From an uncultured Pirellulaceae bacterium (GTDB lineage: Bacteria > Planctomycetota > Planctomycetia > Pirellulales > Pirellulaceae), in contig CALKXO010000258.1 of assembly GCA_938003615.1 (NCBI GenBank), forward strand, positions 1 to 40,149: a stretch of DNA of 40,149 bases. Direction: 5' to 3'. Position numbers and translations under genes: made by a program. Of this stretch, positions 992 to 20,377 are shown in pieces; within the stretch, counting starts at the first letter, position 1; every line of letters begins with the position of its first letter. The notes beneath the pieces are model-generated. The model was not told the DNA's origin and did not search any database. It worked only from the letters and a program-made list of their open reading frames with translations.

Positions 992-2506
992 TTAGTGTGG
1001 CATCAGTGGCCGTTGTTCCTGACCTTCAATGACGGGGTAAAGCGCGTCCATCTCTTCGAGGCTTGTTATCATCGCTGCCATCAGACGACCGACTTCTTTA
1101 GGTTTGTCTTGGGATAAGTTGTTAGATTCCGAAGGATCGTTACGTAGATTATACAGCGCGTACCTGCCTGATTCTTTGCCCGATTCTGGAAAGTAGCGAT
1201 AGATGACTTTCCAATCTCCGTCACGGTAGGTGGTGAAGTAGTTGCTCGTGTGATCATGAGGGAAATGAGATAGAAAAACGGCGTGTTCTTCCTCTGGCTC
1301 TTTGCCACATAAAAGGTGCTTTAAGTCACGGCCATCAACAACATGATCGTGCGGGATTTTTGCACCTGCAATCGCAGCAATGGTTGGGAAGACGTCGTAG
1401 CAAATTCCAATATGAGTCTGAATGTCTCCGGGGTTGATTGGCGTTTGTTCTTGCAATGCATGGCCCGACAACGGTTTGCCCCAAGCAACGATAAACGGAA
1501 CGCGTGTCCCGCCCTCCCACAGTGACCCTTTTTTGCCTCGCAGCGGGGCGGAAGAAGCAATCTCATTTCCGCTGCCAGCGGGGCATGCAGACCCGTTATC
1601 GCTCATGAAGATGATCAGCGTGTTTTCGGCAATGCCTTTGGCGTCGAGATGGTCCATGAGATCACCGAGCGATTTGTCCATTCCTTGAACCAGCGTCGCA
1701 AACGCTTTGTTTCGTTTGTCTTTGTGGGATCCGGCGTAATTGTCACAAAAACGAGGATCAGATTGAAACGGGGAATGAACCGCATAATGTGACATGTAGA
1801 GATAGAAGGGTTGTTCAGAGGAGAGTGATTTGTCGATCTCGGCTTTGGCTTCGATCGTAAGTGCTTCGGTCAGAAAGGTGTTGGTCTTGTGGTATTTTTC
1901 CAATCCCGGGACTCCGCGCTGCTCGCGCTTTGGGTTCAAGTTTCCGTATCCGTCTTCGCCAAAATAGCTACCGGGTCGCCCGTAGGCGCAGCCCGCAACA
2001 TTGACATCGAAACCAAGGGCCGTGGGGTTCTCCCCTTGGTGGCCCGGCGGTGCGAAATGAGCTTTCCCGATGTGGATGGTTCGATAACCCGCCTCACGCA
2101 TCAATGCGGGTAAAGTCACATCGGTGGAACGAAGCCCTTCCCAATTCCATGCTGCAGGACCGTGTTCTCCCGTATTCTTCTCTTTAGGACTGATGAACTG
2201 AGTGGTCCGATGCCGCGCCGCATTTTGGCCCGTCATAATCGATGTGCGCGTTGGTGAACAAACGGTGTGCGCATAGAAATTACTGAAGCGCACACCCCGA
2301 GCGGCAAGTCGTTCCATGTTGGGCGTGCGATACCAAGAGTTAAGCGCTTGATGTACGGGATTACCCTCACCGTCAGTGAACATTGGCACCGAAGTATCCA
2401 TCAGCCCCATGTCGTCGACGAGGAATAGGATGAAGTTAGGTTTTTGCGCTTCGGCCGATGAGTTCGAAAACAAAGCTAACAGAAGGAAGAGCAACGTGTA
2501 TTTCAT
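992..2506 (-). CDS. Secreted sulfatase (arylsulfatase family)
   Basis: The 504-residue protein has a short signal peptide (MKYTLLFLLLALFSNSSAEA) and the full sulfatase layout: metal-binding PNFILFLVDDMG at about 23-34, the formylglycine signature CSPTR at 83-87, IHIGKAHF (substrate-pocket lysine and histidine region), FMSDNGS as the second metal-binding block, LRGKKGSLWEGGTRVPF, and a C-terminal YNLRNDPSESNNL. All key motifs are present, so it is probably an active extracellular sulfate ester hydrolase that needs a formylglycine-generating enzyme encoded elsewhere. It is the only sulfatase here that is whole. It sits in a tandem of broken relatives downstream of the DUF1549 and DUF1501 genes. 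The substrate cannot be read from the sequence. Confidence 0.93.
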   Translation of the reverse strand: MKYTLLFLLLALFSNSSAEAQKPNFILFLVDDMGLMDTSVPMFTDGEGNPVHQALNSWYRTPNMERLAARGVRFSNFYAHTVCSPTRTSIMTGQNAARHRTTQFISPKEKNTGEHGPAAWNWEGLRSTDVTLPALMREAGYRTIHIGKAHFAPPGHQGENPTALGFDVNVAGCAYGRPGSYFGEDGYGNLNPKREQRGVPGLEKYHKTNTFLTEALTIEAKAEIDKSLSSEQPFYLYMSHYAVHSPFQSDPRFCDNYAGSHKDKRNKAFATLVQGMDKSLGDLMDHLDAKGIAENTLIIFMSDNGSACPAGSGNEIASSAPLRGKKGSLWEGGTRVPFIVAWGKPLSGHALQEQTPINPGDIQTHIGICYDVFPTIAAIAGAKIPHDHVVDGRDLKHLLCGKEPEEEHAVFLSHFPHDHTSNYFTTYRDGDWKVIYRYFPESGKESGRYALYNLRNDPSESNNLSQDKPKEVGRLMAAMITSLEEMDALYPVIEGQEQRPLMPH

Positions 2507-2572
2507 GGGCGGGAATGCGGGAGGAATGCGCGGGACAGGACAGAATTGGGAGGTCGGGGCGTAAACAAGTGA

Positions 2573-3314
2573 TCAGCGCACCTTCGATACTGGTGGCAGT
2601 GAAACATCGTTTTGGGTACGCCAGTCAACCAGCGCCTTCAGTAGAGCTTGAGTTTGTTCAGGGGGCGATTGCGCGAGATTGTGTTCCTCACGCGGATCAT
2701 TCTTTAAGTCGTACAATTCTAGTTTTCCATCAGCAAGGAATTGAATCAGTTTCATGTTGTCCTTGCGGATTACCGAGCAGGCTCCATTTCTGTAGCAGCT
2801 GGCCAAGTGCCAAAACAATGGGCGCGTCTGCAATGGGGCGGGCTCATCCTGAAAAAGCCCAGTGATCGAATTGCCGTCTAGTACGCCGTTATACTCAATT
2901 CCGGCGACGTCCATGAATGTTGGGAACAAGTCGAGTCCGGTCTGCGTGCGTTTCGCGTCGATTTTTCCCGGCCAGTTAATACAAGTTGGGACGCGGATAC
3001 CGCTTTCGTAGATAAAGCCCTTCTTACCTCGAAGGGTGTCGTTGCGACCGACGTTTTGCCCATTATCCGATGTGAAAACAATCATCGTATTTTCACGCAA
3101 GTTGTTGTCGTCCAAGAATTTCACAATTCGTCCGACGTTGTTATCCAACGTCTGCATTGCCGAGTTCGTCCACCAAGATAAAGACGATGTTCGGTTTGGC
3201 ATCACCGCTAGTTTCACCAACCGCATCGGCACTGCCTCCTATGACTAGGGCGCTGATCGCAAGAGTGAACGGTAGCAACCCTGTGAGCGCGAGTTTCAAA
3301 AAGTCGTTGTTCAT
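2573..3314 (-). pseudogene. Sulfatase with internal deletion, catalytic cysteine lost
   Basis: From the ATG at 3314 there is a signal peptide and the sulfatase opening KPNIVFILVDELGNADVG, followed at once by TAA. The next frame then carries the second half of a sulfatase: QTLDNNVGRIVKFLDDNN, FTSDNGQNVGRNDTLRGKKG, and the C-terminal ELYDLKNDPREEHNLA. About 200-250 residues normally between these blocks, including the C-x-P-x-R formylglycine motif, are missing. The junction lies near 3150-3160 in GCAGACGTTGG, which fits both the N-terminal (ADVG) and C-terminal (QTL) reading frames, consistent with a short-homology deletion. The 219-aa ORF in the track is only the back part with an artificial start. 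It is almost certainly inactive. Confidence 0.85.
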
Positions 3315-3319
3315 TTAAG

Positions 3320-3600
3320 TTACGGTCTCGGTGAATTGAGTTCGCATTTAAGAACTTGGTTGAAATGCTCGGATTTCTTTGGGTGCTTTGCGGCCAGTTC
3401 AATTCGTTCTTTGTTGTCGTCTAGCATATTGTACAGTTGAAAGCCGCTCTTTTCATTTCTGCCTTGTCGTATGCTTCGACGAGTCTAAATCCCTGACGCG
3501 TGATCAGGGCGTCGCTGCCCATTCGTTTGTTGCGATTATAGGTGACAATATGTTCATGTTGTTTTATTTGCGGCTTGCCAGGTAGCGTCGGTAAGTTAAG
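3320..3600 (-). pseudogene. C-terminal remnant of a sulfatase-like gene
   Basis: Directly after the DUF1501 stop a frame reads LPTLPGKPQIKQHEHIVT and then DALITRQGFRLVEAYDKAEMK. After an apparent frame change near 3450 it continues as GFQLYNMLDDNKERIELAAKHP and ends at the TAA at 3320-3322. The LYNMLDDNKERIELA stretch resembles the C-terminal 'LYDLENDP-E--NLA' region of secreted sulfatases. No start codon, signal peptide or catalytic half exists. A two-base AG repeat (AAAAGAGCGG) at the frame break could explain the shift. I see this as the tail of a deleted gene. The family assignment is less certain than for the neighbouring remnants. Confidence 0.55.
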
Positions 3601-5083
3601 CAATCAGATCTTCGATCACTCGGGCGGGGAGTACACCTGTCAATTTTTGGTCGAGTCCTTGGAATGGAACAGATAGTTTTTGTGGGTCGAACCCGAGCAA
3701 TCGTAACATCGTTGCGTGAAAGTCTCGTAGGTGGACCGGATTCTCGGCAGCCGTATAGCCAACTGAATCCGTCTCACCGTAGCTGAACCCACGCTTCACT
3801 CCTCCACCTGCCATCCAAGTGGTGAACGCGGACGGGCTATGGTCTCGGCCGACAAACTTCATCTCCTTGCCGCCTCGGTTTTCACGCATCGGTGTGCGGC
3901 CGAACTCTCCGCTCCAAACGACAAGCGTATCGTCGAGCATTCCCTGTTGCTTTAGGTCCTTCAGCAATGCTGCGATCGGCTGGTCGACGGACTTGCATTT
4001 GTTTTTGAATCCGTCATTCAATGCTTCGTTTTTGTTGGTGCCGTGCGAATCCCAACCCCAGTCGAACAATTGAATGTAACGAACGCCCTGTTGAGCGAGT
4101 CGCCGCGCGAGCAAACAGTTATTCGCAAAAGATTCTTTACCGGGTTCGGCCCCATACATTTCGACAATATGTTTGGGTTCCTTGGTGATGTCCATCACTT
4201 CGGGCACTGCAGTTTGCATTCGAAACGCCATCTCGTACTGAGAGATACGCGTCAACGTTTCTGGATCGCCAAACTCGTCGTAGGAGCGTCGGTTGAGTTC
4301 ACCGATTGCTTCGAGCATTGCCCGTCGATCATCGCGCGATGTGTCTTTCGGATTGGCGATATTAAGAATCGGACTACCTTTGGCCCGGCATTGAACACCT
4401 TGGTAGACCGACGGCAACATTCCAGCACTCCAAAGTGCTTTTCCAACGCGCGGTTGTCGGCCGCCCGAGAGCAGTACCATATAGCCCGGCAAGTTTTCGT
4501 TCGCGCTTCCGAGCCCCCAAGTGACCCACGAGCCAATCGACGGGTAACCCATACGCGATTGCCCGGTGTGGACCATCAGTTGAGCCGGTCCGTGATTGAA
4601 CTGGTCCGTCTGCATCGTTTTGATGAAGCACACGTCGTCAACGTGCTCAGAGAATTTCGGCAGGCGATCCGAAACCCACATGCCACTTTTGCCGTGTTGT
4701 TTGAAAGGGTATTGTGGCCCCAGCATTTTCGGCGTCCCTTGAATAAACGCAAAACGCTTGCCCTCGAGAAATTCCTGCGGGCAATTCTTGCCATCTAGTT
4801 TGACAAGATCGGGTTTGTAGTCGAACAACTCAAGTTGGCTTGGAGCGCCAATCATGTGCAGAAAGATCACGCGCTTCGCCGTTGCAGGAAGCGGCGGGTC
4901 AACAGCGCTCAGTGGATTGTCTCCAGTCCGTTTCTTCGATGGAGCATCGTTGGCGAGTGCTTGCTGTTGGCTTGCCAGCCAGATTGCACCGAGACCCGTT
5001 GCACTTCCCTGTAGGAAATGACGTCGGGTTGTTTGGCGCAATCGACCAATTTCAAGTTCAGCTTTTAATTTGTCATGGTTCAT
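3596..5083 (-). CDS. DUF1501 family Tat-exported protein
   Basis: The 495-aa protein has a twin-arginine signal (TTRRHFLQGSATGLGAIWLA) and then the DUF1501 core, distantly related to the alkaline phosphatase/sulfatase fold: RVIFLHMIGAPSQLELFDYKP near the start, HGPAQLMVHTGQSRMGYPSIGSW in the middle, DWGWDSHGTN, and VVWSGEFGRTPM towards the C-terminus. In planctomycetes this family is nearly always encoded beside a DUF1549/DUF1553 protein. Here the partner lies 5 bp upstream, so the two are surely cotranscribed. The function is not established; a periplasmic role in handling complex (sulfated) organic matter is inferred from the sulfatase neighbours. The start at 5083 places the RR motif about 19 residues in, which suits Tat export. 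Confidence 0.93.
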   Translation of the reverse strand: MNHDKLKAELEIGRLRQTTRRHFLQGSATGLGAIWLASQQQALANDAPSKKRTGDNPLSAVDPPLPATAKRVIFLHMIGAPSQLELFDYKPDLVKLDGKNCPQEFLEGKRFAFIQGTPKMLGPQYPFKQHGKSGMWVSDRLPKFSEHVDDVCFIKTMQTDQFNHGPAQLMVHTGQSRMGYPSIGSWVTWGLGSANENLPGYMVLLSGGRQPRVGKALWSAGMLPSVYQGVQCRAKGSPILNIANPKDTSRDDRRAMLEAIGELNRRSYDEFGDPETLTRISQYEMAFRMQTAVPEVMDITKEPKHIVEMYGAEPGKESFANNCLLARRLAQQGVRYIQLFDWGWDSHGTNKNEALNDGFKNKCKSVDQPIAALLKDLKQQGMLDDTLVVWSGEFGRTPMRENRGGKEMKFVGRDHSPSAFTTWMAGGGVKRGFSYGETDSVGYTAAENPVHLRDFHATMLRLLGFDPQKLSVPFQGLDQKLTGVLPARVIEDLIA

Positions 5084-5088
5084 GATGG

Positions 5089-8022
5089 TTACTTTGTGAG
5101 AACCTCGTCTAGATTTAGTAGCACAGTGGCCACTTGTTTCATACCCAATTCGACGTTTTCGCTCCCGTGACGTTCGAACAGCTTCACTAATTGATCCACC
5201 TCTTCTTGATCGGGTGTTCGATAAGTTGCCATTACGAATCCACTTTTAATTTGCTCCACCGGTTCTTCACTCGAATCCATCATGCGCTGCGCTAATGCCG
5301 CCGCACACTCTGATAGGCATTGGTCGTTGAGCATCATCAGCGACTGCAGTGGCGTGTTGGATTGGAGACGCCGCGGAGTACAAAACTCGCGTGAGGGGGC
5401 ATCGAATGCCGCAAACATAGGGTAGGGGATGCTCCGTTTGGTATACGTGTAAATCGAACGGCGATAACGATCTTCTTCCCCCACTTGAGCCACCTCCCAT
5501 TTGTCTTTCGCTGCGAAGGGCTTCCAAACACCTTCGGGAATTGTTGGACGTACTGGAGGCCCAAACTGCTTTTTGCTCAGCAGACCAGAAATGGCTAACG
5601 CTTGATCACGAACCATCTCAGCAGACAGACGCCCCCGTGGCCCGCGCGCTAGCAACCGATTGGCGGGGTCTCGTTCGAGTAATTCCGGAGTCGATTTAGA
5701 GCTTTGCCGATACGTGCTGGAGAGAACCATTTCTCGAAGTAGAGATTTGACGCTCCAGTTGAGCTCGGTTTGAAATCGAACGGCCAAGAAATCCAATAAC
5801 TCGGGATGGGTTGGTGCTTCTCCAGAAGAGCCAAAATCTTCTTCGGTTCTAACGATCCCCGCGCCAAAGAGTCGAGCCCAAAAACGGTTTACCGCCACAC
5901 GCGCTGTTAGAGGGTTCTCCGAGCTGACCAACCACAGGGCGAGGTCCAATCGATTGGGCTCCTTGCCGACGAGCAATGGCGGGAATGATGCTGGAGTATC
6001 CGGTTCGACAAGCTTGTCTTTTGTAAGGAAGTTTCCTCGCGCGAAGACGTGGGAAGGACGTCTGAACTTCTCTGGCCGTTCTTGAAGGATGGGTAACGGC
6101 GTCGATTTGATTTCCATACGCTTCTCTGAGAGCGTCGCGCGTTTGTTTCGTAAGTCCGTTACCGCGCTGCTACGACCCAAACTTATAATTTTCAGATCGT
6201 CAGAAACGGAAATGCTGCCTCGACGGGTAACCAATGAAAAAGCCGAAAGAAGATGAATTTGATGTTTCAGTGTCACTCTTAGTTTGGCATGCTCGGGAAC
6301 TGCCAGCGGTTCCTTCAAAACGAAAGCAGCCGACCTCGGATAGTGGATTCTGCTATAGGCTGCGAACCCTCTGTTCGATTCAGGGTTTAGGCTCTCGTTA
6401 GGATCGAAAAAAGGTTCCAGTTCATCGACCATCACGCGAGCGAGTTCGATTTTCTGCGGCTCCTTATCACCGGGGACGGTTAGTGAAGCTTCAAAGTGAG
6501 AAACGCAAAATCCCCACTCGGAATCGATAACGGCTTTGGCAGGATCCAGCGGCAACGCGTCAAGGCGAATGGCGGTCAGTTGCTCAAGGCTCTTGGGCAG
6601 TTTCGATTCGATGGTGATCGCAGTGTCTTGGCTGATTGTTCCGGTGGTGTAGAACTCTTCTCTGTCATTATTTTTTTCGATCTCTAGCTTCGTCGCGTTG
6701 TTGGAAGACACAGATGTTCCATGCAAGGGTTGCCACAGGCTTGCATCTGCAAGCAAAGTGTTTTCTGGTTCCCAGATCTTTTGATTCAGATCCGAAATGT
6801 CGTCGTCCAGCCGTTTTGCTTTTTTGTAATCATTGGTGTCGAGAGGCACGTTGATCGTCGGCCATTCTTCATTGATGTCGCAGTCCGCCGTATTGTTGAA
6901 AAAGGCAGCGAACTTGTAGAACTCATCATGTTCAAACGGGCCGTACGGATGACTGTGACATTGCACACAACCAAACGTTACTCCCTGCCATGTTTGCCAA
7001 GTTGTACTAACGCGATCGAGAACGGCAGCAACGCGAAACTCTTCATCATCGGTGCCGCCTTCCTCATTCGATTGACTCAAGCGATGCGCCGCTGTCGCGA
7101 TCAGGTCTTCCATCTTGGGTTCGGAAAGCAAATCCCCTGCGATCTGTTTGATCGTAAATTGGTCAAAGGGAAGATCCCGATTCAGCGCATCAATGACCCA
7201 GTCGCGATACTTCCACGCATTGCGTCGCCCATCCACGCCAAGCCCTTTCGAATCCGCGTACCGCACTTGGTCGAGCCAAACGCTGGCCCAGCGTTCGCCG
7301 AAACTGGGTGACTCCAACAGACGATCAACAGCGTTTGAGTACGCTTCGTTTGACCACGCTTCGTTTGACCACGCTTCGTTTGGGTGTGCGACCGCAGGCT
7401 GACTGTGTAGATCATTGATGAACTGATCGAAGTCAGCTTGGTTGGGCGGAAGCCCGGTCAAATCAAGGCTGACACGGCGTAGCCACCGGGCTGGTTTTTC
7501 TTTCGCCGATGGGCGCAGGCCTTTTTGTTCTAATGTTGCTAGGACAAAGTCGTCAATCGGTTGGTTACTCCAATCCTTTAGTACGACGTTTGGCGACGGG
7601 GGCGCGACGGGTTTTTCGTATGCCCAATGTTCTTGCCAGTGGGCTCCTTGGCGGATCCACTCGGCCAGCAGTTTGACATCTTCTTCAGAGAGCTTACTGC
7701 CATGCTCGGGCGGCGGCATAACAGATTCGGGATCGTCTGAGGTGACGCGCTCTATCAAGATTGAGTCTTCAGGATTTTCGGGCTCAACGATCCAGCCGTT
7801 GGGTGGCAGCACGGATTCACGATACACGAAGGAAATGTCAGCCGCTTGTTTGACCCCACCGTGGCAAGCCGTGCAGTGCTTGTTGAAGATAGGTCGGATC
7901 TGTCGGTTGAACTGAATCGATTTGCTATTCAGTGTTGGTTCGTCTGCCGATGCAAATGGACCGCTGGCAATCGAGACTGACGCGACGATCAAGCAAGATA
8001 GGAGGAATGGACGTGTATACAT
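5089..8022 (-). CDS. DUF1549/DUF1553 (PSD1) protein with planctomycete cytochrome-c-like domain
   Basis: I place the start at the ATG at 8022 (977 aa) rather than the longer 8163 start, because the protein then opens with a clean signal peptide (MYTRPFLLSCLIVASVSIAS). Next comes the planctomycete cytochrome C domain: FNRQIRPIFNKHCTACHGG with a CxxCH haem motif, and VMPPPEHGSKLSEEDVKLLAEWI. DUF1549 follows (WLRRVSLDLTGLPP, ERWASVWLDQVRYADSKG), with a second CxxCH (GCVQCHSHPYGPF) and a middle carbohydrate-binding-like segment. DUF1553 ends the protein (NPLTARVAVNRFWARLFG, STYRQSS, RGPRGRLSAEMVRDQAL, LNDQCLSE). It probably acts in the periplasm. The biochemical role of the family is unknown. It is cotranscribed with the DUF1501 gene 5 bp downstream. 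Confidence 0.93.
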   Translation of the reverse strand: MYTRPFLLSCLIVASVSIASGPFASADEPTLNSKSIQFNRQIRPIFNKHCTACHGGVKQAADISFVYRESVLPPNGWIVEPENPEDSILIERVTSDDPESVMPPPEHGSKLSEEDVKLLAEWIRQGAHWQEHWAYEKPVAPPSPNVVLKDWSNQPIDDFVLATLEQKGLRPSAKEKPARWLRRVSLDLTGLPPNQADFDQFINDLHSQPAVAHPNEAWSNEAWSNEAYSNAVDRLLESPSFGERWASVWLDQVRYADSKGLGVDGRRNAWKYRDWVIDALNRDLPFDQFTIKQIAGDLLSEPKMEDLIATAAHRLSQSNEEGGTDDEEFRVAAVLDRVSTTWQTWQGVTFGCVQCHSHPYGPFEHDEFYKFAAFFNNTADCDINEEWPTINVPLDTNDYKKAKRLDDDISDLNQKIWEPENTLLADASLWQPLHGTSVSSNNATKLEIEKNNDREEFYTTGTISQDTAITIESKLPKSLEQLTAIRLDALPLDPAKAVIDSEWGFCVSHFEASLTVPGDKEPQKIELARVMVDELEPFFDPNESLNPESNRGFAAYSRIHYPRSAAFVLKEPLAVPEHAKLRVTLKHQIHLLSAFSLVTRRGSISVSDDLKIISLGRSSAVTDLRNKRATLSEKRMEIKSTPLPILQERPEKFRRPSHVFARGNFLTKDKLVEPDTPASFPPLLVGKEPNRLDLALWLVSSENPLTARVAVNRFWARLFGAGIVRTEEDFGSSGEAPTHPELLDFLAVRFQTELNWSVKSLLREMVLSSTYRQSSKSTPELLERDPANRLLARGPRGRLSAEMVRDQALAISGLLSKKQFGPPVRPTIPEGVWKPFAAKDKWEVAQVGEEDRYRRSIYTYTKRSIPYPMFAAFDAPSREFCTPRRLQSNTPLQSLMMLNDQCLSECAAALAQRMMDSSEEPVEQIKSGFVMATYRTPDQEEVDQLVKLFERHGSENVELGMKQVATVLLNLDEVLTK
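7333..7390. repeat. 15-bp in-frame tandem repeat inside the PSD1 gene
   Basis: Three consecutive 15-bp units (gtttgagtacgcttc, then gtttgaccacgcttc twice) plus a degenerate partial fourth lie within the DUF1549 region. On the coding strand they give the peptide repeat NEAWS-NEAWS-NEAYS. Because the unit is a multiple of three, copy-number change by slippage would keep the frame. Confidence 0.9.
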
Positions 8023-8188
8023 TTGTGATTGATTCAGCAGGACGCTCACCGAGAAATCGCTTGTGTTTGGTGTTTTGACATCAACCGCTACTAAAAAATG
8101 CGGTTGGTATGAACGCAAACAAAAGCAATTACAAATTATAAAGGCTTGGGGCCGCAACCCCAATCCTATTTTAGTAGCCTCAGATCAA

Positions 8189-11482: not shown

Positions 11483-14400
11483 TTACTGATTGGTTTTTCG
11501 ATATAACGGCAGCAATCGGTGCCGCACTTCAAGAGACAACAGATTCATCGTTGTCACGTATAAGCGGCCACCATAAGTGCCCCAGCGATCAGGGACTGGT
11601 TCATAGGGATGCCAACTTCCCGCCTGATCGCCTTTTCTTTCTTGCGTGTTGATCAACATCGGCCGGAGTGTGCTGTTCCACTGATTCCATTGCTCGCCGC
11701 CGACATGTTTTAGCACCTGAGTCGCGTAGTACCAATAATAAGTGTCACGCGTTTTGCGGGTGGTCATGTTGGGCAACTGCTGCATCAAAAGATAGTTGGT
11801 CCCTTCCAGCAGGCGCGGATCATTTCTGTCCCAACCACTATAAATCCGCATCAATAGTCCCACCGAAGTCATCGAGGGCGATGGTTTGAGGCCCCGCACG
11901 CGCGAGACGCCCTGCGAGTTGACGGCGTAGGGATTGTAGCGAAAGGTTGATTGATTGTTCGGGTCAGCGGCAATATCCAGCCATTGAGTCAACCTCTGCT
12001 TCATTCCTTCATCAACCTGCAAGTCGGCCAGCTGAGCACTTTGAATCGCCATCATCATCCAGCCAGATACCGAGGTGTCAGTGGATTGCTTCTTCACCGA
12101 GGCAAAGTAGCGCCAACCCCCTTTTGTCGAGTGCTGAGTCTTTGCCAGATAGTCAATCGCTTTTTGTGCTGGCCCTTTGAGCGCGGGGTCCTGCGTCATG
12201 CCGTAGGCCTCGGTCAACGCCAATGTGGCAATGCCATGACTGTACATTCGACAAGCTTCATCGGATCGCTTGTCCGATTCCAAATACAACCCTCCATCTG
12301 CGGACTGGTGTTCTATTAGCCAGTCAATCGCCTGTTTTAACTGCCCCGCGTATCGGTATTCTCGATGGTTGTATCCGCCGCCCTGAAACGCTAACAGGAC
12401 CAACCCTGTCGCCGCGGTGTCACTGTTGAGCTGACGTTTGGACATTGGGTGGCCTGGATCAAATCCTGCAAGCGCCCAACTGCCATCGGGTTTCTGGTGA
12501 CGCGCAAGAAACTCTAGCCCTAAGTGGATTGCCGCTTCGGTCGAGGGTTCGGAGATCGCTTTGACGGCTGACGGATTGCGTTGGCGAAATGCCTCTTTGG
12601 CAAGTACTACATCTGGTGAGACCGCCAACATGCCGCCAAAGTCGCGGCGCTCGAACCGTTGTTCAATAGTCGGCTGAATCTGCAGGCTGGTTTGGGAAGA
12701 CGGACGTGCATCTGACCCAGTTCGCAGATCCGGGCGTGTGCTCAGCCCCGCTGGCCCTGTATCGGCTTCCACGTCCAGTCTGAAATCAGCCGGTTGGACT
12801 TGGCGGTCAACCCCTACATTCTCGAGTACCGCCATCTCTTCTAACGAGCCGTTTGCTGACTCGTCGGCAATCGTGTCGGTTGCCGATTCGCCGGATGGAG
12901 AAGGTTGATTGATGCGGCTGCTGATGTTGGGGACAACTTGAGAAGTCGCCTCATCAGCCGCAGGAAGTGCTGGAATCAAATCGGCCAGTTGATCACTCTC
13001 ACTCTCACTTGGCTTGGCTCTCTCGCTTGGCTTTGATTTGCCCGGTTCGATCAGCGGCAATGAAGCGGCGGCTGTCATCATTAATCGTGTTGCAGCGGTC
13101 CCAAGTGCAGACGAAGGTGCGACTGTCCTTCTGGCGATTTTGCCCATCAATGAATCAGATAATGCATCGGCGTCGCCCGTCTCGGCCTCGTCAATCCCAC
13201 GCCGCTTGTTGGAGGAATCAGTGAAAACAGGTTCCGCTCGGCTATCGGCGAACAACGCTTGAGAGACCGTTGTCTTACGATTCCCAGCGGCCAGTTTTTC
13301 CAGTTCCTCCTCCAACAACTCTTCGATCAATTTTGAAATTGGATCGCCAGCGAGCATGCGGTCGCTACGTTGATCACTAAAGAGCCTAGCAAATGGATTT
13401 TCTCCGCTGTCGGATTTCGCGCCCTTGGTGATGGCCGACACAAAGTCCATGGTTTCCGATGAATCGCCGCCACGATGAGTCGCCATTTTCGCCAGTTCAT
13501 TTGGACGCAGCTCATCGGAACGAGTGGGTTGGGAAGTCATCGAGGCCGACGAAGCCGTTTCAATCGTCACCTCGGCCATTAGCGACGGTAAAACGTCTGC
13601 CGTTTCAGAAGAACGCTTGGTCAATTCCGTTTTGATAGGTCCGATTTCTGGCATGCCGCCTCCGGAACGCCGTTTGGAGGTTTGGTCAATCACAACTTTT
13701 GTCAGTCCAAGATCTGCCGATGCCTCTCCTTTGGCTGCCGCGATCCTATCACGATTGATGGCCAATGCAGAATCAACTCGAGCAGCCGCCGATTCTAGTG
13801 ATTGTTCTTCCGTCTTTCGTGCCCCCGATAGCTTGGCAGATTTTCTGGTGTCCGCGCGGAGGCTGCTGATGGGGCGCGAGGAACGCGCAAGCGTCCGCGC
13901 CCGTTTGGATTTTCGGCTGGTCGCCATCAAAGTTTCTAGATTCGGCAGGTTGAATGCGCGTTCTCGTTTGGCTGAATCAGAGGCGCGCGGTGCCGGTGTG
14001 GCGATGCCGCCGGTGGCGTTGGAGACATTGTTAGATACACCGACTCCCGAAGTACCTTTTGTGCTGCGCGTCAGCGCGGTAGGTTTCGGATTGAGCGTTG
14101 TCGCATTTGATTTTGCTCCAGGCCGTCGAGATGGCGAGTCCTTGGCTTTGACGGTGACGTCAATTAAGCTTGGGCTGGTGGAGCGTCTAGGTTTGACGGG
14201 AGTTGCCTCTGGGCTAGAGATCGTCGGAGTCAGAACTTTTGTTTTCTTGCGGGTGGATCGTGCCAGTTCCGATGTGGGGCTGCGTTTTTGGTTGGCCGAT
14301 GCGATGGGCGCAATACTGGTGATGTCGGATTTTTGCGGCCGGCGCGTTATCTTTCCGGCGGCAGCTGATAGCTCCGATTGACGAGCGTTTGGCTGTTTGG

Positions 14401-15430
14401 CCGTTTGCGAAGTGGCCATTTGTTTGGAGCTAGTTGGCAAGGGCACGATATTTCGTTGCCGCTTTTTAATGGCGGTGGAGCGTTGCGCTGCCGCCGTCTG
14501 ATCTACCTGTTTCGCAAGGGCGGTGGATGTCTTGATGGAAGTCGTTTTTTGCCGCACTTGTCGATCGGGATTTGCTTGGCCCGTCGTTGGAGCGGAATCT
14601 GGAGCGGAAGCGATGGGCGCTGCCGCAGATTCAGTTGGCTTACGTTTAACAGACGCATTAAGAGAGGCAGTCAGTTGCTGCACAGGCTGCGCGGGCGCAG
14701 TGGGTTGATTGGTGGCCTTTGCAACAGGTTCCTTTTGCCCTGTTGCCACCGAAGCGGTGGACGGCTCAACCTTTGGCGTGACAGACGCGCGTCTGCGTTG
14801 GGCCGGTTCGGTCTGGGAGTCCGTATTGATCACCGACCGCTTCAACTCCGACATGGATTTGGAAAAACGCGGGATCGATTTTCGCGTGCGTTTCTGTCGG
14901 ACCAACTGTGGCTGAGGGGTGGGCGTGACCTCGATCGTGGGCAGTGTTTGCGGTTTCACGTCTGTTTGTGGCGTGTCTTTTTTCTCGATCCTGATATCGG
15001 GTTCAGGAACTGGCTGGGAAACCACTTTTTGCCATGGAAAAGGATTGGAGCGGCGGGTGATTTCGATCGACCGACTGCGGCGCTGAACGACCTTCTGTAC
15101 CGGCAAGGGGTCGGCCCCATGGAAGATGCTGATCGCGGACGTGAAGATCAGGATCGCCAAGTGAACCGATAACGATGTCAGCGCGGCCAGTTGCAAGGAT
15201 CTTTTGAGTTTGGAGTCGTCCATTTGCAGGAGCGCAAAATGAGCTGCCGCAGCAAGCGCTGGCAATAGCAACAACATCGTCCACATCCATGCGCCGTCCA
15301 ACAAAGTGGCGACTGCACCAACAGCCAAGGCGCAGGAAATTGCCAGCGCAACCACTACCGGCCAGACCTGTTCGTCAAACGGCTGGTCCTCGTAGTGGTT
15401 AAGTCTTTCGATAGCACGTCGAATTCTCAT
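11483..15430 (-). CDS. Giant membrane protein with disordered linker and squalene-cyclase-like C-terminal domain
   Basis: The protein has 1315 residues. It begins with about three membrane helices (roughly residues 23-102: VWPVVVALAISCALAVGAVA, MWTMLLLLPALAAAAHFALL, LTSLSVHLAILIFTSAISIF). Residues about 105-950 are low in hydrophobics and rich in S, T, K, R, A, P and Q, predicted to be disordered and strongly basic in the first half. From about 962 to the end lies an alpha/alpha-toroid of the prenyltransferase/squalene-oxidase-repeat type, with QW-like turns DGSWALAG, ADGGLYLE, KGGWRYFAS and QAGSWHPYE. The cyclase DxDD acid motif is not seen, so enzymatic cyclisation is doubtful. It follows exbD by 21 bp, the position a TonB- or TolA-like partner would hold. 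The large linker could span the periplasm. The function is unknown. Confidence 0.88.
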   Translation of the reverse strand: MRIRRAIERLNHYEDQPFDEQVWPVVVALAISCALAVGAVATLLDGAWMWTMLLLLPALAAAAHFALLQMDDSKLKRSLQLAALTSLSVHLAILIFTSAISIFHGADPLPVQKVVQRRSRSIEITRRSNPFPWQKVVSQPVPEPDIRIEKKDTPQTDVKPQTLPTIEVTPTPQPQLVRQKRTRKSIPRFSKSMSELKRSVINTDSQTEPAQRRRASVTPKVEPSTASVATGQKEPVAKATNQPTAPAQPVQQLTASLNASVKRKPTESAAAPIASAPDSAPTTGQANPDRQVRQKTTSIKTSTALAKQVDQTAAAQRSTAIKKRQRNIVPLPTSSKQMATSQTAKQPNARQSELSAAAGKITRRPQKSDITSIAPIASANQKRSPTSELARSTRKKTKVLTPTISSPEATPVKPRRSTSPSLIDVTVKAKDSPSRRPGAKSNATTLNPKPTALTRSTKGTSGVGVSNNVSNATGGIATPAPRASDSAKRERAFNLPNLETLMATSRKSKRARTLARSSRPISSLRADTRKSAKLSGARKTEEQSLESAAARVDSALAINRDRIAAAKGEASADLGLTKVVIDQTSKRRSGGGMPEIGPIKTELTKRSSETADVLPSLMAEVTIETASSASMTSQPTRSDELRPNELAKMATHRGGDSSETMDFVSAITKGAKSDSGENPFARLFSDQRSDRMLAGDPISKLIEELLEEELEKLAAGNRKTTVSQALFADSRAEPVFTDSSNKRRGIDEAETGDADALSDSLMGKIARRTVAPSSALGTAATRLMMTAAASLPLIEPGKSKPSERAKPSESESDQLADLIPALPAADEATSQVVPNISSRINQPSPSGESATDTIADESANGSLEEMAVLENVGVDRQVQPADFRLDVEADTGPAGLSTRPDLRTGSDARPSSQTSLQIQPTIEQRFERRDFGGMLAVSPDVVLAKEAFRQRNPSAVKAISEPSTEAAIHLGLEFLARHQKPDGSWALAGFDPGHPMSKRQLNSDTAATGLVLLAFQGGGYNHREYRYAGQLKQAIDWLIEHQSADGGLYLESDKRSDEACRMYSHGIATLALTEAYGMTQDPALKGPAQKAIDYLAKTQHSTKGGWRYFASVKKQSTDTSVSGWMMMAIQSAQLADLQVDEGMKQRLTQWLDIAADPNNQSTFRYNPYAVNSQGVSRVRGLKPSPSMTSVGLLMRIYSGWDRNDPRLLEGTNYLLMQQLPNMTTRKTRDTYYWYYATQVLKHVGGEQWNQWNSTLRPMLINTQERKGDQAGSWHPYEPVPDRWGTYGGRLYVTTMNLLSLEVRHRLLPLYRKTNQ

Positions 15431-15451
15431 GCGGTTCCATCGGTACCGTAA

Positions 15452-15865
15452 TTAGGGATCGTCCATGGTGGCGGTGTATTCAAAAATACCGACTTTCTTG
15501 CAAATGCTCATCGCCGTCGCGACCGATTCCCAATTTGACTTGCGGTCGCCGCGAATAACCACAGTCTGCGTTAGCGGATTGTTGGCTTGGGCGCGGCGGA
15601 GCATTTGTTCCACCTGTTCGGCTTGTCGAAAAGCTCCATCGATAAAGAACCGTCCTGCGCTGTCAATGTTGATCACCAGTTCACTCGGTTCGATCGTCGC
15701 CGGTAGCGCCTCACTCACACTGGGCAAATTTAGGTCCAACTCGCGTTCTTCCTCGGAAAAACGTGACGACACCAAAAAGAAGATCAGCAAGAGAAACACC
15801 ACGTCGATTAACGGCGTGACACTCAGCGATCCAATGGCCGAAGAACGTTTTATTTGAACAGGCAT
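15452..15865 (-). CDS. ExbD/TolR-type biopolymer transport protein
   Basis: The 137-aa protein has a short cytoplasmic N-terminus, one membrane helix (VTPLIDVVFLLLIFFLVSSR, about 17-36) with the conserved proton-coupling aspartate at residue 21, and a periplasmic ExbD/TolR domain ending VVIRGDRKSNWESVATAMSI. It pairs with the channel protein encoded 3 bp upstream to form a proton-motive-force stator. The downstream gene encodes the giant membrane protein, probably the mechanical output of this complex (inference from gene order). Which of ExbD or TolR it resembles more cannot be settled by eye. Confidence 0.93.
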   Translation of the reverse strand: MPVQIKRSSAIGSLSVTPLIDVVFLLLIFFLVSSRFSEEERELDLNLPSVSEALPATIEPSELVINIDSAGRFFIDGAFRQAEQVEQMLRRAQANNPLTQTVVIRGDRKSNWESVATAMSICKKVGIFEYTATMDDP

Positions 15866-15868
15866 GGG

Positions 15869-16927
15869 TCAGTTTGACTTTGGTTTGAAAAACTTTTCCG
15901 GAGCTGGAACAGCCAGTGATCCTGCTGGCCCAGAAGGCGTATTTGAATTTTCCATCGCTCCATTGGCGGGTTGAGCCCGATTGCTGCCGGTTGCCGAAGG
16001 CATCTCGGTCTCGGTTTCTTTTGGCTGTAAGCCTCCAACGGTGAATCGGACTTGCCCTTCATATTTTTCAAGTTGAGGTAGCAAGTGGTACGCCATTTCT
16101 TCGATCTCGTTGATCAATTGCACAATTCGGGTTTCGTAGAAGTGCGAAAGGATGGCGGCGGGAATCGCAATCAACAGTCCTGTCATGGTCGTCACTAGCG
16201 CCGTGTAAATTCCTTGAGCCAGTGCCTCGGCGCGGTTTTGGCCAACGACAAGTTGCGTCGTATCGTAGAACGCTTGAGTGATGCCCCACACTGTTCCCAA
16301 TAGTCCGATCAAGGGCGCGATTGCTGCAGCCAATGTCAGCCAAGATGTCATCCGGGACAACCGGGTCGCCTCACGTTGTGCGGCTTCGGAGACGGCGTTC
16401 TCCATTTCCGATTGAGGTCGACCGACTTTCATCAGCATGGTGCGAAGAACGTAGGTCGCCGAAGAAGGATTGATTTGGCAAAGTTGATAGACACGACGCG
16501 GATCGAGTCCGCCTTTCTGGGCACTCAGCATGGAGATCTGATCGACCAGTTCTGGCGGAAAGATTTTTTCTCGCCGCAGCGCCAAAAATCGTTCCACGCC
16601 GATGGTGACCACTAGGATCGACAAAACCAACAACGGCAACATGAACCAACCGCCGCGCGTCAGTAAAGTCAGAAAGTTGATGCCAGGGCGTCGCTGGGAA
16701 GTTTCGACTTCGATTGCTCCGTTGGGCTGCGCTTGCAGGGCGGTTGCATTAACGATTCCGGTTGAGGTCGACAGCCACTGATTCTCGGCAGGCGCAGCGG
16801 CGCAGGTGTCAATCGACAGCCACGTGAAGGCAATTGCCAATAGCAATAGCAATAGCAATAGCAAAGGCAACCATTGCCGCAATGATGGCGATGGTGAGCG
16901 AAACAGAATTAGCGAAGCGCGAATCAT
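15869..16927 (-). CDS. MotA/TolQ/ExbB proton channel family protein
   Basis: The 352-aa protein starts with a long leucine-rich signal or anchor segment (residues about 17-35), then a short exported stretch. The three family helices follow: GWFMLPLLVLSILVVTIGVE (about 92-112), LTLAAAIAPLIGLLGTVWGI (about 197-216) and TALVTTMTGLLIAIPAAILS (about 242-262). GLLGTVWGI and TTMTGLLIAIP are the channel's conserved ion-path segments. The C-terminal tail is polar. With ExbD it forms the inner-membrane stator that uses proton flow to do work in the periplasm. An extra N-terminal exported segment is common in planctomycete versions. It lies 72 bp after the TPR gene, in the same operon. Confidence 0.93.
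   Translation of the reverse strand: MIRASLILFRSPSPSLRQWLPLLLLLLLLLAIAFTWLSIDTCAAAPAENQWLSTSTGIVNATALQAQPNGAIEVETSQRRPGINFLTLLTRGGWFMLPLLVLSILVVTIGVERFLALRREKIFPPELVDQISMLSAQKGGLDPRRVYQLCQINPSSATYVLRTMLMKVGRPQSEMENAVSEAAQREATRLSRMTSWLTLAAAIAPLIGLLGTVWGITQAFYDTTQLVVGQNRAEALAQGIYTALVTTMTGLLIAIPAAILSHFYETRIVQLINEIEEMAYHLLPQLEKYEGQVRFTVGGLQPKETETEMPSATGSNRAQPANGAMENSNTPSGPAGSLAVPAPEKFFKPKSN
16838..16861. repeat. Hexanucleotide microsatellite (CAATAG)4 in the exbB leader helix
   Basis: Four perfect CAATAG units occur, with a degenerate fifth (caaagg) following. On the coding strand each unit is CTATTG, giving Leu-Leu, so the repeat builds the run of nine leucines in the N-terminal hydrophobic segment of the ExbB protein. 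Gain or loss of a unit would lengthen or shorten the helix by two leucines without breaking the frame. Confidence 0.9.
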
Positions 16928-16999
16928 ACAGAGGCTTTTTTCGAACAGAAGTTTGTTCCGATAGTGGGAAAGAAAAGGTGGTGAGGGGCGCGAAGTGTT

Positions 17000-19900
17000 T
17001 TATTTTAGTTGCCGGAGAGAGTTGTTTGGATTGTTTTCAATTCTTTTGAGTGTTTCTAGTTGTTTTCTTGCGTCTTTGACAAGACTTTGATTCGGATAGT
17101 TTTTAACCAGATACGTGAAATGCTGGATTGCATCCTTGACCAACTGTGGTTTCATTCTTTCGGACGCCTCGGAGATGCGAACGTAACTGCAGCGGGCCGC
17201 TTCATACACCGCATAAGCCTGCAACGAACGAATCTCCGGCGGCGACTCGGTGCCACCGTGCCCATAAAAGACAAGCTTGAATTCGTCGATGGCCTCGTCG
17301 AATTGCTTTTGTTTGAACAACAAGTCGCCTTTCATCAGACGGGCGCGGGCACCTGTTTTTCCAGTGTTGGCTGCAGCTCGTTGCCACGCATCGATCGCGC
17401 CGTCTTCCTGATTCAGTCCCATTCTCGCCTGACCGATTTCAAACCACGCTTCGTGCTGCGTTGCTTCGTCGGCTTCGATCGTGGTCAGTGGCGTGGCGAA
17501 ATCAATTGCCTGTTGCCACTGCTCCTGCTGGTTCGCACTTTTGGCACCGTTGATCATCGTCAACCACTTCAGCCGATCGGGTGTGCTTTTGGATTGCAGC
17601 ACGATCGGTTTTGCAACTATGTATGCTTCGAGTGCCTTGGCGTAGTTTTCATTTTCGAACCACGATTGAGCCAGCATGAAGCGCCCGTCGACAGCGAGGC
17701 TCCCTTCAGGGAATCGCGCGGTCTGTTTGTCAAACACCTCGGCGGACTGTTCAAAACGGTTCTGTTTGTAGCTTGACCAAGCAAGTTTATAGAGGGCTTT
17801 CTCCATCAATTCGTTGGATACGTTTGGACCGTCAATCACGTTGTTATAGAAGGTCGCCGCATCGTCGTATTTTTTCTGATCGTAGAATGCTGTGGCAACT
17901 TTGAAGTGCGCTTCAGCCGCTAAAGGACTTGCTGGAAACGTATCGGCCAAATCCCGGAACTGCGCAGTTGCGTCATCAAGTCGATTGAGCGACTCCAGCG
18001 TCCAAGCTAATTCATAGCGCGTCCGGTCGGCCAGACGATTCTCATTCGGCAGATTGAGTAAGCTGCGGAAAACTTTTTCTGCTTCCTCCCAGTTTTCATT
18101 TTCGACGTAGGCCAACCCCAGTTCAAAGAGGCTGCTGTTTTTTGTATCGCCCTCAGGGGCAGTTTCGAGGAATTGCTTGAGTGCTTCAATCGCCTCACCG
18201 GCCTTACCCAACTTTCGATGTGCGACGCTTCGCGCCATGCGGGCCTGAGAAGCCATTTGATGGTCAGGGAATCGCTCAATAAGTGAGTTGAAAGATTTTT
18301 CAGCCTCGTCAGCTCGATCTGTTCTCAGCAGCGCCCAACCCTGCCCCAACAACGACGCTGGAACGAATTCTGATTTCGGGAATTTATTTAGTAACAGCTG
18401 ATACTGGCTTAACGCGTCTTCAAGTTCATTGTCGTCGTAGAGCGTCTCGCCGATTCGGAAAACAGATTCTGCGACTGCCGGTGACTGCGGGAATTGGCTG
18501 GTGATTTTGGCGACTGTCAGACGGGCTTCGTCGATCGAGTCAGTCGCCAGCTGACAACGTAGAAATGCCAATAGCGTTTCGTCCGCGCGTTCCCATTGCT
18601 GAACTGAATCGATCGAGTTCTGCAGGGAGACCATTGCGTCTGCATATTTGTTCTGTTGGTACTGACTTGCACCAATCCAGTGTCGCGCTTCTGAAGCGCG
18701 TTTTGGCAGCTTGATCGAATCTAACCGTGCGGTCAGCCACGCTTCGGTTTCAGGATACTTCTTCTGAAGATAGAGTGCCCATCCAGTCCTCAATGTCCAA
18801 TGAGATTGTCGCTTGCTTTTTGGAAAATTCTCGGCCAGCGTGCGAAAGGTTTTCTCTCCAGCGGCATAGTCCTCTTTTACCAGTTGGGCATCTCCCAATA
18901 TGTCCTGCACATCCATTGCTAAAGGATGAGCTGAGTGGTTTTTCATGAACCGCTTTGCTGTTTCAATGGACTTGTCCGTTTCGAAAGACTCCCACCATGC
19001 TGCGGTCGCGTTGAATAGCGCTTCAGGTGCAGCACGGTCTTGAGGGAACTTGTCTGCGATTGCAAGAAACCGCTCTGCGGCCTTGGGTTTCATTTTTGGC
19101 GTGGCGTAGGCCGCTTCCGCATTTTCCATCAACAGGGCGACGTGCAGTGGAGCTTCGGCTGACTTTTCGATCCAAGCCTCTGTCAGCGCGTTTGCTTTTT
19201 CTGGCACGCCGCTGCTGCGGTAGGCGTTGGAAAGTAAAATGACCGCTTCGAGACCGAAACCCGAATCGCCACGGGTCAGAGGTTCTAGTGTCTTTATCGC
19301 GACGGGATATTTTTTGGCCCGTATCCACTCGCGTCCAGCCATCACCATCGCCTGATTGGCATTGGGCGAATCTTTATCCGTCGCTGCTTGTTCAAATAGT
19401 TTGGCCGCGCGCGAAAATTCCTCTAGTTCTCCCGCAACCATTGCTTGGCGGAAACAGGCGTCCGCGTAAAACGCTGAATTCGGATTGTCCGAAATTCGAC
19501 GAAGACGTTGGTCAGCTTTCTTCAATAGTTCAACCGCTTGCACCGATTCTTGCCGACCTCGCGCGGCGGCAGCAAGAAGCATATTTAGTTTGGCGATCTG
19601 AAGATTGATGTCATCGATCGCTTCCGCGTCATCAGTCGGTACGGATCTAAGATACTGTTCAAAAGCCGACAACGCCCGATCGAATTTCCCTGTTTGTTGG
19701 TAAGCGCTTGCGAGATCGTATTGAGCAACCTCTTTGAATTTTGCGTTGTCAAAGGTGTCGAGGCCTTCAAACGCCGCGACCGCTTCGTCATATCGCCCAA
19801 GTTTGTAGAAAGCCTGTCCCTGAAAATATAGGGCTTGATCGGCATCAGGGTAGTCAGGATATTCCTTAACGATTTTGCCCAGTGTTCGGGTGGCTGTTGT

Positions 19901-20377
19901 GAGAAACATACCGCCTTGGGTTTGCTCCTGTTCTGTCTTCGAAAGCGCCAGTTGGTCGCCATGTTTCATTTGAGAGAATCCGAGAAACAGCAGCGACTTA
20001 GGAACGTTAAGCGACTTGTCGCCGGCCTCTATTGCCGCGCGGATTGGTGCAATCGCCTCGGCATATTTATTTTGTTGGAACAAGCAGATACCAAGGTTCA
20101 ATTTCGCAGTTGCAATTTTGGACCAATTGGGGTGCTGCTTGACCAAACTCTCCCATTGTTTCTGAGCGAATTTGAAATCATCGTTGTTCTGCGCATTGCT
20201 GGCGCTGGTTGCAATTTTTTCGGCGGACGCGTTGCCGGCTGTTTCATCGGCTTGCGGCCGCGCAATGAACGCGGCATCGGCCGGTAAAATGACAGAAGCT
20301 GATACGATGAAGGCTGCGACCATCACAGTCGTCTGCCAAGCAGAAGCAGTTCGATTGAAGCGCGGAACGTTTGACAT
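17000..20377 (-). CDS. Large periplasmic tetratricopeptide-repeat protein
   Basis: The 1125-aa protein starts with a signal peptide (WQTTVMVAAFIVSASVILPADA, about 14-35). Almost all the rest is TPR-type helical repeats with recurring A-[FWY]-x-L...FP-x-S...A spacing, such as DADQALYFQGQAFYKLGRYD, AEEALLWQG-like ALLRTDRADEAEKSFNSLIE and DDAATFYNNVIDGP. Several repeats resemble the CpoB/YbgF and BamD-like outer-membrane TPRs ('FP-S--A--A---'). It probably acts as a periplasmic scaffold. It is the first gene of the run leading to the ExbB, ExbD and giant-toroid genes, so it probably serves the same machine. No catalytic motif is seen. Confidence 0.9.
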   Translation of the reverse strand: MSNVPRFNRTASAWQTTVMVAAFIVSASVILPADAAFIARPQADETAGNASAEKIATSASNAQNNDDFKFAQKQWESLVKQHPNWSKIATAKLNLGICLFQQNKYAEAIAPIRAAIEAGDKSLNVPKSLLFLGFSQMKHGDQLALSKTEQEQTQGGMFLTTATRTLGKIVKEYPDYPDADQALYFQGQAFYKLGRYDEAVAAFEGLDTFDNAKFKEVAQYDLASAYQQTGKFDRALSAFEQYLRSVPTDDAEAIDDINLQIAKLNMLLAAAARGRQESVQAVELLKKADQRLRRISDNPNSAFYADACFRQAMVAGELEEFSRAAKLFEQAATDKDSPNANQAMVMAGREWIRAKKYPVAIKTLEPLTRGDSGFGLEAVILLSNAYRSSGVPEKANALTEAWIEKSAEAPLHVALLMENAEAAYATPKMKPKAAERFLAIADKFPQDRAAPEALFNATAAWWESFETDKSIETAKRFMKNHSAHPLAMDVQDILGDAQLVKEDYAAGEKTFRTLAENFPKSKRQSHWTLRTGWALYLQKKYPETEAWLTARLDSIKLPKRASEARHWIGASQYQQNKYADAMVSLQNSIDSVQQWERADETLLAFLRCQLATDSIDEARLTVAKITSQFPQSPAVAESVFRIGETLYDDNELEDALSQYQLLLNKFPKSEFVPASLLGQGWALLRTDRADEAEKSFNSLIERFPDHQMASQARMARSVAHRKLGKAGEAIEALKQFLETAPEGDTKNSSLFELGLAYVENENWEEAEKVFRSLLNLPNENRLADRTRYELAWTLESLNRLDDATAQFRDLADTFPASPLAAEAHFKVATAFYDQKKYDDAATFYNNVIDGPNVSNELMEKALYKLAWSSYKQNRFEQSAEVFDKQTARFPEGSLAVDGRFMLAQSWFENENYAKALEAYIVAKPIVLQSKSTPDRLKWLTMINGAKSANQQEQWQQAIDFATPLTTIEADEATQHEAWFEIGQARMGLNQEDGAIDAWQRAAANTGKTGARARLMKGDLLFKQKQFDEAIDEFKLVFYGHGGTESPPEIRSLQAYAVYEAARCSYVRISEASERMKPQLVKDAIQHFTYLVKNYPNQSLVKDARKQLETLKRIENNPNNSLRQLK

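Follow-up and report, generated by a model that had tools for sequence, protein, structure and literature searches.

The association of an ExbB/ExbD-type motor with a protein ending in a squalene-cyclase-like fold raises the question of what such a motor would drive. The arrangement lies in what we call the window, that is, the whole stretch of 40,149 nucleotides analysed here (contig CALKXO010000258.1 of assembly GCA_938003615.1, an uncultured Pirellulaceae bacterium). Genes for a TPR protein, ExbB, ExbD and the toroid protein follow one another with gaps of 72, 3 and 21 bp (Table 1), and the open reading frames together with Pfam bear out the lengths, order and spacing given in an earlier sequence-only reading. 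Elsewhere in the window (992-8163), sulfatase, DUF1501 and PSCyt1/DUF1549/DUF1553 genes form a gene set familiar from planctomycetes. The downstream PdxA was rejected as a cluster member, since it adjoins the cluster only in the nearest relatives and is kilobases off or absent elsewhere.

Table 1. Coordinates of the four genes and of the segments of the toroid protein in the window
Feature	Position	Strand	Remarks
TPR protein, 1125 aa	17000..20377	(-)	TPR repeats by Pfam
ExbB/TolQ-like motor subunit, 352 aa	15869..16927	(-)	Pfam PF01618, 4e-26
ExbD/TolR-like subunit, 137 aa	15452..15865	(-)	Pfam PF02472, 4e-23
Putative toroid transducer, 1315 aa	11483..15430	(-)	3 predicted TM helices, disordered linker, C-terminal alpha-toroid
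TM3 with TonB/TolA-type S86-x3-H90 (about aa 78-102)	15124..15199	(-)	
Juxtamembrane D-box-like segment (..RRSRSIEITRRS.., about aa 116-127)	15050..15085	(-)	D-box pattern incomplete in the window (SIEIT)
Disordered basic linker, 852 aa	12569..15121	(-)	conserved PR......L.R element near aa 187-198
Alpha/alpha toroid domain, aa 955-1315	11486..12568	(-)	AlphaFold2 pLDDT 92.9; Foldseek

The four genes are not a chance neighbourhood of one genome. The complete TPR-ExbB-ExbD-toroid order was recovered in 64 deduplicated loci of Planctomycetota, with median gaps of 48, 21 and 39 bp, and 10 further loci are cut by contig ends; this is far beyond chance, and the concern that the order might not extend past the genome of the window fell away. 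Named records with the conserved cluster include MAGs labelled Mariniblastus and the cultured Stieleria tagensis. Relatives of the toroid protein occur in 60 of 60 related genomes and in 228 of the 244 genomes sampled across the phylum. In Blastopirellula marina, as in a related family within the class, ExbD and the toroid gene alone were found together, which makes this pair the tightest core of the system, and ExbD-toroid pairs are also seen in other lineages with ExbB and TPR genes not adjacent. One orthologue of the main toroid type (type 1), at locus L061, has no adjoining motor genes.

How the toroid protein might be connected to the motor is suggested by its N-terminus. A membrane anchor had been proposed there and is indeed present, albeit as three predicted helices (aa 25-43, 50-68 and about 78-102) and not as a single one. 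The third, TM3, reads SLSVH at S86 to H90, and T97 and S101 stand at the L and S positions of the full SHLS motif; in structures of the known systems, the equivalent Ser and His (S16/H20 of TonB, S18/H22 of TolA) contact ExbB or TolQ (PMC12215075). SxxxH is present in 97 of the 129 toroid proteins for which a helix is predicted, against 25 of 1339 TM segments (1.9%) from other proteins of the same loci, a few of those 25 looking like real relatives, including a vWA protein in L139. An alignment of type-1 proteins (66 rows) gives 92% for His90, 94% for Gln80 and 71% for Ser86 (otherwise C, G or A), members without His90 carrying N or Y; since these rows were gathered with a motif-like pattern, 97 of 129 is the less biased figure. 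Beyond the helix, TonB possesses a D-box, a strand alternating hydrophobic and polar residues directly after the membrane segment (PMC10907165). Of 67 motor-linked toroid proteins, 53 show a hydrophobic-polar-hydrophobic triplet within His+22 to +49, versus 27% of other linker windows, and in locus L055 the segment REITVSMVAPD is close to QPISVTMVTPAD of E. coli TonB. As a mark of a transducer, for which the alternation should have Pro on its flanks, this D-box-like pattern may be taken as supportive, not as proof.

The motor itself looks intact. As matched by eye to E. coli positions on the alignment, the ExbB of the window keeps the TM1 Ser (Ser34 equivalent, conserved in nearly all rows), the channel Thr (GLLGTVWG, ALVTT) and the Pro residues, while ExbD has TPLID with the proton-path Asp, and this TM Asp is present in every ExbD aligned. 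The equivalent of Trp38, which belongs to a contact network in E. coli ExbB (PMC12215075), is not conserved and is Val in the window. Genetic linkage of ExbB/ExbD to the toroid gene and an intact proton path are thus both present. These features bear on whether the toroid protein is merely a passive tether joining the inner membrane to the wall or the outer membrane, with ExbBD as its anchor. Such a tether would account for the TPR partner and for the long linker, which, as claimed for its roughly 850 residues, is basic (K+R 129 vs D+E 94, an excess of 35); membrane contact sites have also been described in planctomycetes (PMC5394234). A conserved proton-path Asp and channel Thr would, however, be superfluous for an anchor, and we regard a tether as improbable.

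At the other end of the protein, where TonB or TolA carries its own C-terminal domain, Pfam gave no TonB_C or TolA C-terminal match, and the AlphaFold2 model (54 aligned sequences) is a toroid that is alpha-helical almost throughout. The proposal of a squalene-cyclase-like toroid without an evident DxDD holds in both its parts: the motif was not found in the window toroid and is absent from 143 of 149 domains of the family, being present in 6, and a terpene cyclase identity was rejected on this ground. The match to SQHop_cyclase_C is sub-threshold (9e-6), the toroid scoring weakly and under curated cut-offs with squalene-hopene cyclase models, and among solved folds Foldseek places nearest to it small terpene cyclases, AprG, epimerases and GH76 enzymes, at a TM of about 0.6 and mostly 5-7 A. 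With squalene-hopene and other class II terpene cyclases the toroid thus shares the fold and a weak sequence match, but it lacks DxDD, is membrane-anchored and is fused to a transducer-like N-terminus. One could still argue for a periplasmic enzyme acting on terpenoids or polysaccharides that is anchored beside ExbBD and not driven by it. The best named toroid matches are cyclases, pectate lyase and other alpha/alpha-barrel enzymes, and some 40 polar or aromatic positions of the toroid show conservation of 85% or more, as in a binding or catalytic pocket. Nevertheless, the lack of DxDD in nearly all domains and the modest structural matches speak against an enzyme of this kind, which also leaves the SxxxH helix and the pairing with ExbD unexplained; we give it little credence. 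Given the conserved positions, the toroid likely holds a pocket for a ligand or a peptide, and catalysis and force coupling may coexist in the same protein, the two not being mutually exclusive.

Taken together, the SxxxH helix, the D-box-like strand, the conserved ExbD-toroid pair and the intact motor residues support, at the level of sequence, the force-transducing arm that had been suggested for this protein, and we consider it probable that the cluster encodes a trans-envelope force transducer that is driven by protons, bears a toroid as its tip and works like TonB or TolA. In this mechanism, ExbB and ExbD would form an inner-membrane motor powered by proton flow, and the toroid protein, with its three helices placing the N-terminus inside and the C-terminus in the periplasm, would dock on ExbB through S86/H90 of TM3 and on ExbD through the juxtamembrane strand. 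Proton flow would then move the protein by these two elements, the disordered linker would extend into the periplasm and carry the pull, and the toroid would grip a partner on the far side. The best candidate for this partner, or for its scaffold, is the TPR protein, which would be secreted: a Sec-type signal peptide (..SVILPADA|AF) is recognized by eye and no lipobox was found in it. Counting against a force transducer are the unconserved Trp38 equivalent of ExbB, the type-1 members without His or Ser, L061 and the standalone toroids without an adjoining motor, and TM and linker features unlike those of TonB.

Comparison with the classical systems indicates what the transducer may serve. The cluster shares with TonB-ExbBD and TolA-TolQR the ExbB/ExbD motor, the Ser-x3-His helix, a D-box-like strand that is partial in the window, and a disordered linker, but TonB has a single TM helix and some 100 aa of linker, against three helices and 388-1815 aa here, and both the TonB_C or TolA end domain in the cluster and a TonB-dependent receptor set in the genus are missing. 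TonB_C is absent in 28 of 28 genomes of the genus and the receptor Plug domain in 26 of 28 (present in 2), some of these genomes being incomplete, and Plug was not found in the genome of the window (87% complete); it follows that the cluster does not serve classical TonB import in this genus. A likeness to Tol-Pal lies in the TPR partner, whose repeats resemble YbgF/CpoB and BamD, and in a toroid variant bearing a PD40 beta-propeller, the repeat type of TolB; tolA, tolB and pal were not among the neighbouring genes scanned. Tol-like envelope maintenance and Ton-like uptake of macromolecules seem about equally likely.

The toroid protein of the window belongs to a wider family. In its tree, the type-1 toroids group as a single clade (SH-aLRT 93) whose sister is the PD40-propeller variant, and secreted helix-less toroids are the outgroup. 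In this variant (L240, L242, L245, L250 and L069; the propeller tested by Pfam in L240 and L250 only), the TolB-like propeller lies N-terminal to the SxxxH helix. A second motor-linked type branches deep: the same genome as the window encodes a paralogous TPR-ExbB-ExbD-toroid cluster (L080, G000 contig C84, 4669-11958) whose toroid protein has 707 aa and two TM helices with SxxxH in the second, and its ExbD has relatives in 59 of 60 genomes. Standalone toroids of 500-800 aa (L078, L079, L005 and others) keep the SxxxH helix with no motor beside them, and toroids of L068 and L177 have an N-terminus that is also cysteine-rich and zinc-ribbon-like. Among 94 neighbours of the standalone toroids, no conserved partner gene was found, the commonest being GyrA, in four. 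Conversely, the ExbB-ExbD-ExbD sets of L121, L124, L125 and L127 have no adjacent transducer with an SxxxH helix; TPR-like neighbours lie beside those of L121, L125 and L127. Since the former have the helix without a motor and the latter motors without an obvious transducer, it is a reasonable hypothesis that motors are supplied in trans. The several toroid paralogues per genome, like the conserved toroid positions, would also fit a complex that serves regulation or sensing, with the toroid signalling a ligand to the motor (for instance by gating proton flow) and doing no work on a partner. This requires extra assumptions, however, and Pfam found no signalling domain in the cluster, so that we deem a sensor very improbable.

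Is the machine then undescribed? We found no paper linking ExbB/ExbD with such a toroid in the open-access literature, subscription papers and supplements lying outside the search, and in this respect the sequence-only reading stands. It needs a qualifier, since Williams-Jones et al. (2025) described in PVC bacteria vWA force transducers with adjoining TPR, TolQ-like and TolR-like genes, that is, the same principle with another end domain (PMC12204202). Common to both are the TPR and motor-gene neighbours, the Ser-x3-His helix, a disordered linker and an end domain other than TonB-C. In the vWA transducers the TM helix bears the SHLS motif, the linker measures about 100 aa and there are usually two TolR-like genes (PMC12204202), whereas the window cluster has one ExbD, three TM helices, a far longer linker and an alpha-toroid, and Pfam, the AlphaFold2 model and Foldseek found no vWA C-terminal domain in its toroid protein. 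A 323-aa vWA protein of relative G041 (L139, 6695-7666), with the helix SWALSLVIHLLILCLLAIGL close to that of the toroid proteins, likely belongs to the 2025 family.

Planctomycetes take up dextran and GFP, which reach a large periplasm, and cells treated with CCCP showed no uptake of dextran (PMC5394234). The toroid machine may possibly have a role in this uptake, and it offers a testable candidate for how both molecules cross the outer membrane. More speculatively, and with considerable doubt on our part, the toroid proteins of Planctomycetota, motor-linked and standalone, could all be proton-driven transducers, a large family whose tips are interchangeable and whose standalone members are served by motors in trans, and which replaces TonB/TolA and powers CCCP-sensitive macromolecule uptake into the enlarged periplasm. 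If the force-transducer reading is true, a phylum-wide family matching squalene-cyclase models (those 228 of 244 genomes) would be reassigned to mechanical work in the envelope, and the end domain of transducers would prove modular (TonB-C, vWA, toroid). The pairing of a proton motor with a toroid-tipped arm suggests an undescribed mode of trans-envelope mechanical work.
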